This document shows positions 335 through 5,346 of a stretch of 64,000 nucleotides of DNA, piece after piece. The notes below the pieces were generated by a model that saw only the letters and a program-made list of their open reading frames with translations, did not search any database and was not told where the DNA came from. A program made the position numbers and the translations under genes. Each line of letters opens with the position of its first letter. The first letter of the stretch is position 1. Source of the stretch: Lentisphaera profundi (GTDB taxonomy: Bacteria; Verrucomicrobiota; Lentisphaeria; Lentisphaerales; Lentisphaeraceae); NCBI RefSeq assembly GCF_028728065.1, contig NZ_CP117811.1, positions 2,542,001-2,606,000 of the forward strand. The letters run 5' to 3'.

Positions 335-1483
335 ATGAACATACTCAATAGACACATACTAAAGAATCTACTTTACATCTTTGTAGCGTCCTTACTCGTC
401 CTCACCTTCATACTTGTCCTTGGATTAATGATTAAGATTTTAAGCCGATTAGATACTTCTATTTCTCAGCTATTTATCTTAAAAATGTTTCTCATGTTAC
501 TCCCAAAAGTACTCGCTTATGCGATACCTATTGCCAGCTTAGTCAGCGTGACTTTAGTATTTAGTCGTATGTCGGCAGAAAATGAAATTACCGCAATGCG
601 CGCCTCTGGCATCAGCCTCTGGCAAATTGTCAACCCAGCTATCCTTTTAGCTCTCGCCTCCTCAGGCTGTCTACTCTACCTAAATATGTTCGCAGTGCCC
701 CACTTAGAAGCCACCCGAAAATCAATGATGAAAGGTGAATTACTTTCGAACCCTTCCAATTTTTTACGAGGTGGATCCACTATTGAATTAGGCAAACTCA
801 CCGTGAATATTGGAGAAAAAGAAGCTGATGGTACGCTAAAAGACCTAAGAGTAATTGAACTCGATCATTCTAAAGGAATTGTGGCTAATCAACTCCTCGC
901 TCAAAAGGGACGCATTATTGATGCTAATGAAACTTCTTTTACCATCGAGTTTATTGATGTCATCATTCTCGATAATAACTGGGAGTTCACTGACAATAAA
1001 GATGATGACAAGCAAATCCTCAATGGCGTAAAAGTAACTCGCCTACCGAATGCTAATACTACCTATACTTTTTATACTAACGAAGAGCTTAATAGTGGTG
1101 ATTTGCGTAAACGCGCCAAATACCTTAACCTTTGGGAAATGATTGCGAGACTAGCCGTTTTGGAAAAGAAAGAGCAAAGCAAAACTGTACGTCGAGAACA
1201 CACTGACCTACTTTACAATTTAAACAAAAACCTCGCTCTAGCCTTTTCTCCTCTCGCTTTCTTACTAATGGCCTTGCCTTTCGGCCTCCGCTCTAGTCGC
1301 TCAGAAACAAGTATTGGTTTACTCATTAGTCTTATCGTTATGATGGTTTATTACGCCACTATTTTATTGACGGGAGCCTTTGATAAACATACTGCACTAC
1401 ACCCCGAAATATTGGTTTGGTTACCAAATATTATTTTTCAGAGCTTAGGCTTAGGCATGATTGCATTTAAAGTGAGTCATTAA
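335..1483 (+). CDS. LptF/LptG-family LPS export permease (YjgP/YjgQ)
   Basis: This is an inner-membrane subunit of the ABC machine that extracts lipopolysaccharide and pushes it onto the periplasmic Lpt bridge. The 382 residues have the LptF/G layout. Two N-terminal membrane segments (about 10-35 and 50-75) are followed by the conserved cytoplasmic stretch 'SAENEITAMRASGIS' that contacts LptB and by a third segment (about 100-120). A beta-rich periplasmic domain (about 130-265) and three C-terminal membrane segments follow, including 'ALAFSPLAFLLMALPFGLR'. Whether it is LptF or LptG cannot be decided without a tree. No partner lptF/G or lptB is seen in the window. The stop overlaps the stop of the convergent gene by 4 bp and no terminator lies between them. 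Confidence 0.85.
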   Translation: MNILNRHILKNLLYIFVASLLVLTFILVLGLMIKILSRLDTSISQLFILKMFLMLLPKVLAYAIPIASLVSVTLVFSRMSAENEITAMRASGISLWQIVNPAILLALASSGCLLYLNMFAVPHLEATRKSMMKGELLSNPSNFLRGGSTIELGKLTVNIGEKEADGTLKDLRVIELDHSKGIVANQLLAQKGRIIDANETSFTIEFIDVIILDNNWEFTDNKDDDKQILNGVKVTRLPNANTTYTFYTNEELNSGDLRKRAKYLNLWEMIARLAVLEKKEQSKTVRREHTDLLYNLNKNLALAFSPLAFLLMALPFGLRSSRSETSIGLLISLIVMMVYYATILLTGAFDKHTALHPEILVWLPNIIFQSLGLGMIAFKVSH

Positions 1484-4221
1484 CTCGGTTTTGCTTCCAT
1501 CCTGACTTCCGTTCTAAAGCACCTAGGTCTCATATTATATTTACTCTCTTTGAGCTTTTGGATAACTGCTTTTGTTTGCGGAATTCGCATACTATAGACC
1601 TTTGTCTTTCCTACGTATTCCTGCCAATACTTATTAATAATCAATAAGTCAGCTTTAGTTTTAAAGATATCAGGAATCGCATAAGCAGATTCATTGACAT
1701 CACCTAGATGCTCTTTTTTAAACATACTCTTCTCTTTGTGCCCATAATATAAGCTCATAGTTAAAAGGTAAAACTGCATCTTAAATGGTGCAAAAAGCTG
1801 TTCCACCATTTCGATGAAATCCTCCGCTAGTTCACCGTTCACAAGTAATCGATGGGCTAAATTATTACGTCGAAGAATCTCAAAATCTACTAATTCTTTA
1901 GTTAACTTTTTTTTCCCTTTCATTTCACAGAGTGAATGAGCGAGTGCCGTATATATTGACTCTAATACTTTATGAAAATTACCCATCTCATATTTGTACT
2001 CATTTTTCTTAACGAGTACTTCACGACTAATATCTTTAGCTAGATGAAGGTCATTTTCAAAATATACTTCCAAAGCTAGAAAACGATCTTCTCCATCACC
2101 CATCTTGCGCCAGCTAGCCGCCACAGACTTACGTTTGGAAATGAGTAATTCCTGCTGAGCGTTAACTCTTTCAAAGATCTCCATGGACTTCTGTTCATCC
2201 CCACCTAAATCAGATGAGATCGCCCCTAAGCCCAACTCAAATTTGCCATCATCGCAAATTGCCCAACGTTGCTCCCTTAGTTTTTCATAAATATAATAAG
2301 GGCTCAAGCCCCCTTGGACCTCGGGCATAACAGAAATAATATCCCATAAATGTGCAGCAGGAACACCCATATCCTCTGTATCACCTAATCTATGACCTAA
2401 GCGCGCGCGCAATATTTCTGAATTTGTGACTGTTAAATTAAACACGGTATTAACGCCTAAACCATTCCACTCATCTAGCAGGACTTCACGATTTGCGAGA
2501 ATACACAAAGTCGACCCATCTGCTAAGAGACTATTGACCATCCAAGTCCAAAAAGCTTGGGTAAAACCCTTGCCTTTAATTTTAAAATAACAATAAACAC
2601 CATCATCGTTTCTCGTCATGTGGAGTGCTTGACCATAGAGATCTATATAGTGACTGATACTCTTTTCCATTCTACTGGCAAATCGTGGATTACAGTACAG
2701 CATATTTTCCCACACCACTACAGGGTTCATTTGTACTGTTACTAAATTCTCCTGGCACTTCCAAAATACACTCATCAGCCCACATGAATCCGCATTAGGC
2801 AAACCTGCATCTAAGGCATCTTGTGAACTATCAGTAAAATCGGCAATAACTAAGCCTCGAAATTTATCTCCAGTCGCCTCCCATTCTTTTTCCATTAAAC
2901 TGAGCAGACGATCTTCTTTGGCACTTGTACGACCCAACAAATTATTACTCAATGACGAGTAAGGTCGTATATCATATTGTGTGAGTAAAAAACCTACTTT
3001 CTTTAGCCTTGAGATAAATTGTTCCGCATACTTGTGGTCATTCTCATCTTTAGATTCAAGTAAAACATTAAAAATGTATTCGCGATAAACGAGTAATTTT
3101 CCCTGGGGTTGTTCTTCTGGCACCTTTCTTAAATAAACTTCCCAGTCAGCACCATCAATTAAGTCGTGCTCACGTCCATAATATAAGACCGAAGTCGTCC
3201 ACTCTTGCCGACGCGCCCAATTGGCTAACATATCCTTTGCTAAATGACCCAACTCTGATTTTATATACTGATTTAAAGTCAACTTGGTGCGATGCCCATA
3301 GTTGATCTCTTGAATCAAATCATGAAGATTATCAATGACTTCTTCTATCGCTTTCGCTGATTTTCGATCGGGCTCAACAAAACTAATAAGTTCACGCCAA
3401 GGACGACAAGCTCCATCAACAGAAAGGCTCGTTAAACTTAATTCCGTAAATCTTGTACCAAAAAAGTTTTGCCTTTGTTGCTGCGCGAGTTTAGTCCCAA
3501 AAGCTTCTTCTGGGCGAAAGGTACTGAAACCAACGAATGGGCAAGGCATCTTGCTATCCATTTCTCTCAAAAGGGTCATCCATGCACCACCTAAACGAGC
3601 CGCGCCATCCGCAATGACTAAATCAAATTTCTGTTCGGCTAAAATTTCTATTGCCTGATCTAACTCTTCGTGAATTATTTGTACATTGCCTTCCATCAAA
3701 GGACTCAGTGCCGTTATGTATTCGTCAAAATTCACTTTCTCTAAATTACGTAAAACTTTGTCCATTTCTAATGACGCATCAATATCACCAGAACTCAATT
3801 CATCTCCCTCATAGGCGCTAATTGAGGAAACCTCCCTTAAATGTAATCGGCGAGATTCCACCTGCTGGCTAGAGGTGATCTTAAAACAAGGTCCAAAATA
3901 ATTATAGGGAATCAACGGCATCAATGGGAAACCTAAGTCATTGGGCTCACCAAATATTTTTCTTTCATCCACATCATCTTTAAGCCGTTTACGAAAAACT
4001 CTTTCCCATGAACTACTAGCGACTGAATCAGTAACTAAAATCAATGGCCGTAAATGCTTACTTCTACAATATTCAATAATCGCGTTGATGATTTTTTCAT
4101 GCATAGGTGTTACAACTAAGCGATGCTTACTCGTCGCCATTATTTCATCTAACGTACCACCTACCACTCCCAAGACATGATCTGCTTTACTGGGATTTAT
4201 GTTTTTCCATAAATCTAACAT
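1480..4221 (-). CDS. Degenerate SF2 (DEAD/DEAH-like) helicase homologue, probably without ATPase activity
   Basis: The 913-residue protein has no intact nucleotide-binding motif but follows the order of a large SF2 helicase family. Residues 33-44 (HRLVVTPMHEKI) sit where Walker A is expected but lack GxGKT. PLILVTDS (59-66) resembles motif Ia. DLVIADGAARLGGAW (200-214) matches a 'vilDEcHrLg..W' motif II with only D205 kept. PFVGFSTF (228-235) resembles motif III. The second half keeps 'DKFRGLVIADF' (about 452-462), 'ILANREVLLDEWN' (about 574-586, motif V) and a motif VI region (about 598-617) in which the Q, R and R of QxxGRxxR appear as A, H and G. A 'N-X13-WRKMG' element farther on also matches the family. 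Function is unknown; a structural or DNA/RNA-binding pseudoenzyme is possible. Active homologues were recalled, not searched. The gene stands alone, convergent with the lpt gene and divergent from lipA. Start is ATG at 4221. Confidence 0.6.
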   Translation of the reverse strand: MLDLWKNINPSKADHVLGVVGGTLDEIMATSKHRLVVTPMHEKIINAIIEYCRSKHLRPLILVTDSVASSSWERVFRKRLKDDVDERKIFGEPNDLGFPLMPLIPYNYFGPCFKITSSQQVESRRLHLREVSSISAYEGDELSSGDIDASLEMDKVLRNLEKVNFDEYITALSPLMEGNVQIIHEELDQAIEILAEQKFDLVIADGAARLGGAWMTLLREMDSKMPCPFVGFSTFRPEEAFGTKLAQQQRQNFFGTRFTELSLTSLSVDGACRPWRELISFVEPDRKSAKAIEEVIDNLHDLIQEINYGHRTKLTLNQYIKSELGHLAKDMLANWARRQEWTTSVLYYGREHDLIDGADWEVYLRKVPEEQPQGKLLVYREYIFNVLLESKDENDHKYAEQFISRLKKVGFLLTQYDIRPYSSLSNNLLGRTSAKEDRLLSLMEKEWEATGDKFRGLVIADFTDSSQDALDAGLPNADSCGLMSVFWKCQENLVTVQMNPVVVWENMLYCNPRFASRMEKSISHYIDLYGQALHMTRNDDGVYCYFKIKGKGFTQAFWTWMVNSLLADGSTLCILANREVLLDEWNGLGVNTVFNLTVTNSEILRARLGHRLGDTEDMGVPAAHLWDIISVMPEVQGGLSPYYIYEKLREQRWAICDDGKFELGLGAISSDLGGDEQKSMEIFERVNAQQELLISKRKSVAASWRKMGDGEDRFLALEVYFENDLHLAKDISREVLVKKNEYKYEMGNFHKVLESIYTALAHSLCEMKGKKKLTKELVDFEILRRNNLAHRLLVNGELAEDFIEMVEQLFAPFKMQFYLLTMSLYYGHKEKSMFKKEHLGDVNESAYAIPDIFKTKADLLIINKYWQEYVGKTKVYSMRIPQTKAVIQKLKESKYNMRPRCFRTEVRMEAKPS

Positions 4222-4308
4222 TTGTATCTCTCTTTTATATTATATGCTTATAAGATACGGTGGCAAAAAAAGCTTGGCAAGAATCCTCGCGAGCTTCATT
4301 TAAGATAT

Positions 4309-4446: not shown

Positions 4447-5346
4447 ATGGCAGATAAAAATCAAAAACGCTTACCGGAATGGATTCGGGTCAAAGTTAAC
4501 CGCGGTGGAAACCGTAACGAGCTGAGCACCGAATTACGTGACCGCAAGCTTAACACCGTTTGTGAAGAAGCTAAATGTCCAAATTTGGCTGAGTGCTGGC
4601 ATGAACGCACAGCCACTTTTATGTTATTAGGGGTCAACTGTACGCGCGCTTGTCGTTTCTGTGCTATTGGCTACGATAAACCTCTACCTCCTGATCCCGA
4701 AGAACCTGCTAATGTAGCAGAGACTGCCGCAAAAATGGATTTACAGTACGTTGTGATCACTTCTGTAGCCCGAGATGACCTTGACGATGAAGGTTCCGAC
4801 CAATTTGCAAAAACAATTCGCGCTGTTCGCGAAAAGTTGCCCGATGCTGGCATCGAAGTTTTGACTCCTGATTTCAATGGTAAAGAAGATCTGATTCGCA
4901 TGACTCTTGATGCCATGCCTACCGTATTTAACCACAACCTTGAAACATGTGAGCGCTTATCTCCCCCCATCCGTGGGCGTGCCAAATATAAACGTAGCCT
5001 AGAAGTACTTAAGAATGCTAAAGCATGGAGCAAGGGAAAAGTATTAACAAAATCGGGGATCATGGTAGGTTTAGGCGAAACAGACGAAGAAGTTATAGAC
5101 TGCATTAACGATCTCTTTGCTGCTAATGTTGACATTTTAACCATTGGTCAATATTTGCCACCTTCACGTAAACACTGGAAATTAGATCGCTACGTTCGTC
5201 CTGAACAATTTGAAGAATGGAAAGAATACGCAGAAAAACTAGGTTTCAACGCTGTTGCGAGTGGCCCGATGGTCCGTTCTTCGTATAAAGCGGGCCAGCT
5301 TATTACAGCAAAACTTGAAGAACAGCAGTTAAATTTTAAAATTTAG
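4447..5346 (+). CDS. lipA: Lipoyl synthase (radical SAM)
   Basis: LipA inserts two sulfurs into protein-bound octanoyl chains to make the lipoyl cofactor of 2-oxoacid dehydrogenases and the glycine cleavage system. The 299 residues show both [4Fe-4S] cysteine sets. CEEAKCPNLAEC (about 39-50) is the auxiliary, sulfur-donating cluster, and CTRACRFC (about 65-72) is the radical-SAM CxxxCxxC. The family's C-terminal region follows (GQYLPPSRKHWKLDRYV and a late 'GPMVRSSYKAG'). Length is normal for LipA. The ATG at 4447 follows a weak AGGA. No lipB or lplA lies nearby. The promoter of the next gene overlaps the 3' end of lipA. Confidence 0.97.
   Translation: MADKNQKRLPEWIRVKVNRGGNRNELSTELRDRKLNTVCEEAKCPNLAECWHERTATFMLLGVNCTRACRFCAIGYDKPLPPDPEEPANVAETAAKMDLQYVVITSVARDDLDDEGSDQFAKTIRAVREKLPDAGIEVLTPDFNGKEDLIRMTLDAMPTVFNHNLETCERLSPPIRGRAKYKRSLEVLKNAKAWSKGKVLTKSGIMVGLGETDEEVIDCINDLFAANVDILTIGQYLPPSRKHWKLDRYVRPEQFEEWKEYAEKLGFNAVASGPMVRSSYKAGQLITAKLEEQQLNFKI

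Follow-up and report, generated by a model that had tools for sequence, protein, structure and literature searches.

In the window (the whole stretch of 64,000 nucleotides of Lentisphaera profundi DNA that was analysed), one gene raises the question of why a protein built like a large SF2 helicase has been kept after its catalytic motifs were lost, and what such a protein might do. The reading we prefer, at a probability of roughly 0.6, is that it is a pseudohelicase with a RIG-I/Hef-like fold, a core protein of the whole family that serves as an ATP-independent binding scaffold. According to this reading, the nucleotide site of an SF2 translocase would have been destroyed in the ancestor of the Lentisphaeraceae and the dead protein then retained as a family-wide core protein, in which two RecA-like lobes, a helical insert, and the C-terminal region would form a fixed, ATP-independent platform to which nucleic acid, a protein partner, or both would bind, in the manner of the inactive helicase domains of XPF, AddB, and Deinococcus PriA. 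The gene lies between a convergent and a divergent neighbour:

335 to 1483, plus strand: convergent neighbour, which we take from its sequence to be an LptF/LptG-like permease; selection control
1480 to 4221, minus strand: pseudohelicase gene (913 residues), an open frame with open-frame orthologues in 6/6 family genomes
4227 to 4233, minus strand: AGAGAGA stretch 5' of the ATG, a candidate ribosome-binding site judged from sequence
4239 to 4266, minus strand: promoter-like TTGCCA-16-TATAAT (11/12, a consensus match only), just 5' of the pseudohelicase ATG
4447 to 5346, plus strand: divergent neighbour, presumably lipoyl synthase (lipA), named from its sequence; control

The initial annotation had reported an intact frame over 2.7 kb, and the 913 residues are indeed encoded without interruption. 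The promoter-like site suggests that the gene may have its own transcript. A conserved partner, which had been thought worth looking for in the neighbourhoods of orthologues, did not emerge between genera in an all-against-all BLAST of the neighbours. In one genome (G003), a PD-(D/E)XK (Cas4-like) nuclease gene is situated directly 3' of the dead helicase (L007:8086-9477); it was rejected as a conserved neighbour, being absent beside the other dead copies.

Searches of Pfam and NCBIfam with the window protein returned no significant family (RecG_N, at an E value of 0.14, was discarded) and no catalytic domain, whether an ERCC4 nuclease or another. PADLOC and PHROGs gave no match, viral contigs gave generic helicase matches only, and a literature search found no studied member of this helicase family. 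The homology to an active SF2 family, which the initial annotation had proposed, was established with a profile (A1) built from the six orthologues and searched against genes of the same class, in which active class members matched at E values of 5e-95, 1.5e-94, and 3.4e-93. The sole PDB sequence match of this profile, a keratin, was set aside as a chance hit. An AlphaFold model based on 23 sequences (pLDDT 81.3, pTM 0.75) matched MDA5, Hef, ancestral Dicer, RIG-I, XPB, and FANCM in Foldseek (E values of 1e-10 to 1e-7; about 1e-10 to 1e-8 for MDA5, Hef, and RIG-I), the matches including Hef (1wp9), FANCM (9el5), and XPF-ERCC1 (9qec), and since the alignment contained active relatives, this fold match is not fully independent. 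With the six dead sequences alone, the model was of low quality (pLDDT 50.7), its best PDB match still being Hef (1.8e-5). A fold devoid of RecA-like domains, which would have spoken against the helicase assignment, was not seen, and we infer from the models that the window protein has the two RecA-like lobes of the SF2 helicase fold.

The window protein was aligned with 17 motif-bearing homologues (alignment A3, 23 rows), which placed the helicase motifs at the following sites, all on the minus strand:

4090 to 4113, minus strand: motif I (Walker A) site, residues 37-44, VTPMHEKI versus active SPPGSGKT; lost
3592 to 3609, minus strand: motif II site, residues 205-210, DGAARL versus active DECHHL
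3511 to 3528, minus strand: motif III site, residues 232-237, FSTFRP versus active LTATPP; lost
2464 to 2499, minus strand: motif V site, residues 575-586, LANREVLLDEWN versus active VGTRGLLGEGWD; mostly lost, with R578, L581, and W585 kept
2380 to 2406, minus strand: motif VI site, residues 606-614, ARLGHRLGD versus active NQLRGRAIR

Motifs I, II, III, and VI are lost in all six orthologues, and most of motif Ia and much of motif V have also gone from the window protein. The initial annotation had thus been right about the erosion of the catalytic motifs, about the unrecognisable Walker A, and about D205 as the sole survivor of DECH; motif V, which it had counted among the retained elements, is itself altered. 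Its account of motif VI held as to the loss of QxxGRxxR (now RLGHRLGD), and its reading of the Q, R, and R as A, H, and G was one residue out of register: in the corrected register, R607 stands in place of the Gln and D614 in place of the last Arg, and the first Arg persists as R611. An intact GKT or DExH in another part of the protein, named beforehand as evidence against erosion, was not found; a lone GKT (871-873) and a lone DExD (392-395) do not coincide with any RecA motif site and are unconserved in the other genera. Because the erosion is common to six genomes of three genera, chance or sequencing error is excluded as its cause. Judged by its sequence, with homology to active helicases and with motifs lost under selection, the protein would rank as a pseudohelicase, and it represents a new lineage of these proteins, which are themselves a known kind.

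To our knowledge, only a handful of pseudohelicases have been described in bacteria, mostly as components of well-studied machines. AddB is a precedent of a dead helicase domain, and the helicase-like domain of XPF, alongside Hef/FANCM, is an inactive, eroded SF2 domain that persists as a platform. The window protein is like XPF in its eroded SF2 domain and in its fold matches, and unlike XPF in having no associated ERCC4 nuclease. A stand-alone pseudohelicase that is kept by a whole family and has active relatives at hand opens an ATP-free role of the helicase fold to direct comparison. The PriA protein of D. radiodurans, in which ATPase activity and unwinding are lost and DNA binding is kept, offers a bacterial parallel, being likewise of SF2 type, with motifs degraded throughout the lineage and the gene kept (PMC4504706). 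PriA has, however, a known pathway and partner (DnaB), unlike the window protein, which belongs to another SF2 family and whose motif loss is shown in one family only. The pseudohelicase Utp25 also has a helicase fold without working motifs and an essential role that does not need them (PMC9539457), but it is a eukaryotic DEAD-box derivative of ribosome assembly and not a close relative of the window protein.

Active copies were found within the class in six genomes (G220, G248, G255, G260, G287, and G292). They carry intact SPPGSGKT, DECHHL, GTRGLLGEGWD, and QLRGRAIR, and have either LTATPP or a sequence close to it; their Pfam match is ResIII, at about 1e-17. The homologues at L029, L030, L031, L063, and L092, uncharacterised ResIII/DEAD proteins, share their length and order of elements with the dead copies at 16-22% identity, as profile homologues from a neighbouring clade, and differ from them in having all motifs intact and a retron RT adjacent. 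An RT gene lies directly 5' of the active helicase in five of the six genomes, a retron link that the initial annotation had not noted; in G287, the two genes lie on different contigs, and both are truncated by a contig end. The operons include the following:

L030, 7522 to 11626, minus strand: retron-like operon of an ncRNA with a1/a2-type inverted repeats and an msd-like hairpin, an RT of the retron clade, and an intact ResIII/SF2 helicase
L031, 5814 to 9895, plus strand: retron-like operon with the same three parts as L030
L063, 6836 to 10894, minus strand: retron-like operon with the same three parts as L031
L092, 1 to 3093, minus strand: retron-like operon with the same three parts as L031

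For the three RTs tested, the nearest PADLOC type was retron RT_XIII (E values of 1e-83 to 5e-89). A conserved TTTAGAT..GTGCGGTGTTTCGCCGCGC element located 5' of the RT, within long inverted repeats, folds into msr/msd-like hairpins. A covariance model of this ncRNA (R1), built from four of the six genomes, matched exactly the six active-copy genomes among 198, the matches in G255 and G287 being independent, and no Rfam family matched the ncRNA. The layout of these active sister genes is the three-part layout of retrons (RT, msr-msd ncRNA, and accessory protein), and a ResIII/SF2 helicase accessory was absent among the PADLOC retron proteins matched. Possibly, the operon is an undescribed retron type with a helicase accessory gene; if so, a motor protein would join the known retron accessories. 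In G255, the ncRNA (L129:5962-6117, contig C109) is on a different contig from the RT-helicase pair (L029:4602-8695, contig C87) and adjoins the gene found next to the intact retron of G248; the picture resembles a relocation of the protein genes that left the ncRNA in place.

The dead rows form one clade with a support of 100/100. Moreover, at seven positions that are fixed in the active members (in at least six of seven), the dead copies all carry one and the same other residue (R276, N427, R431, C480, E579, N595, and R607), the last replacing the motif VI Gln in all six. The single clade and the switched positions, including the Gln-to-Arg change, suggest a single motif loss in the family ancestor; proof is opposed by the other motif sites, which differ by genus, and by the GTRELLG that G003 keeps in motif V. 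In all trees, including those without the long-branched rows and whichever dead rows were omitted, the dead clade joined the RT-linked clade and not the RT-free members, in trees whose branches are very long and whose root was placed among the RT-free members by assumption.

This attachment, and the presence of a retron-like ncRNA and an RT of the retron clade in every genome that has an active class member, would fit an ancestor that was itself a retron's helicase accessory, the RT and ncRNA having been lost and the helicase recruited to a cellular role. The association may, however, have arisen in the sister lineage only. Besides the length of the branches, the window gene, unlike a retron, has neither an RT nor an ncRNA: model R1 found no match in the six family genomes (with the six positive genomes of the class as control), no retron RT stands beside the dead copies, and elsewhere in the family genomes only distant or RT-TIR matches were obtained. 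Such a domesticated remnant is possible but rather doubtful, and, as a question of origin, it is compatible with either binding mode. We hold still more tentatively the fuller scenario, in which a retron immune helicase gave up both its motor and the other retron components to become a core family protein with a dead-motor scaffold role, its active sisters defining a helicase-accessory retron type; if true, a defence helicase would have been domesticated into a scaffold. The RT on contig C88 of G003 was rejected as a retron of the same kind, since it is an RT-TIR fusion; an RT-TIR fusion resembling retron type XII and cut by the contig end lies at L119:1-1173 of this genome.

What the scaffold might hold was approached through the residues conserved in the active members. 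In the 23-row alignment, the dead copies retain 22-24% of these residues in the ATP motifs, 34-39% in the nucleic-acid motifs, and 32-41% elsewhere, so that the motifs, which are the best-kept part of the active members, are here no better kept than the rest, and there is no reason to prefer a helicase-like grip on DNA or RNA to a protein-only scaffold. The best-kept stretch of the window protein comes after motif VI (WD, 626-627; DG..E.G, 658-664). A protein that touches no nucleic acid, and instead holds proteins or competitively occupies the partner site of an active helicase, would also agree with the retention of only 17% in motif Ia and with a pI of 5.2-6.1, in which a basic shift is absent. 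For the inhibitor form, a target could be sought in the one related active helicase of the same genome, a distant, motif-intact paralogue on another contig (L028:8741-11383, that is, G000:C2:725740-728379), which also occurs in G002 (71% identity); it is absent from G001 and from the other genera, and thus cannot be a general target of inhibition. We consider this protein-only alternative unlikely. The paralogue was also rejected as an obligate partner of the dead protein, being missing from four of the six family genomes. Its subfamily (WRPYQ start) is present in other families of the phylum as well, without an adjacent RT.

The ATP-independence of the preferred pseudohelicase scaffold bears on a further alternative, a residual or non-canonical NTPase in which D205, R611, and other residues still bind nucleotide. 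Both are indeed among the nine positions invariant in all 23 rows (W72, Y106, D205, W214, D461, L581, W585, N591, and R611). However, the pattern [AG]....GK[ST] is found in none of the six orthologues, and each genus has its own, unrelated residues in place of Walker A (VTPMHEKI, SPRQSAVN, and APSTPLLR), so that there is no conserved phosphate loop. An NTPase is accordingly quite improbable; some residual nucleotide binding might persist, given that D205 and R611 are kept.

The dead form is present as a single copy with an open frame (897-926 residues) in all six family genomes examined, which represent three genera; decay of orthologues by frameshift, which the initial annotation had listed as contrary evidence, is absent. 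Within the genus, the pN/pS of the gene, used in place of dN/dS because synonymous sites are saturated, was 0.106-0.112, as compared with 0.107-0.114 for lptF, 0.13 for def, 0.19-0.24 for fmt, and 0.253 for the active paralogue. These results support the proposal that selection maintains the protein for a role other than ATP hydrolysis, and the gene is not decaying. A slowly decaying, still unbroken pseudogene, to which the high divergence between genera might point, is scarcely credible in view of the six open frames and a pN/pS of 0.11 with saturated synonymous sites, and is already refuted for the genus Lentisphaera.

Between genera, the dead copies share only 22-25% identity. By comparison, the nearby gene fmt, which within the genus is less conserved than the dead gene (82-83%), retains 41-43% between genera, and active class members share 51-57% across different families. 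Comparison of these identities fits a phase of fast divergence after the motif loss, presumably followed by constraint. The RecA lobes are the slow part of the dead gene; RecA2 (dN of 0.037-0.062) changes least of all parts in the comparison with G001 and about as much as RecA1 in that with G002, and the C-terminal third is the fastest part in both (0.16).
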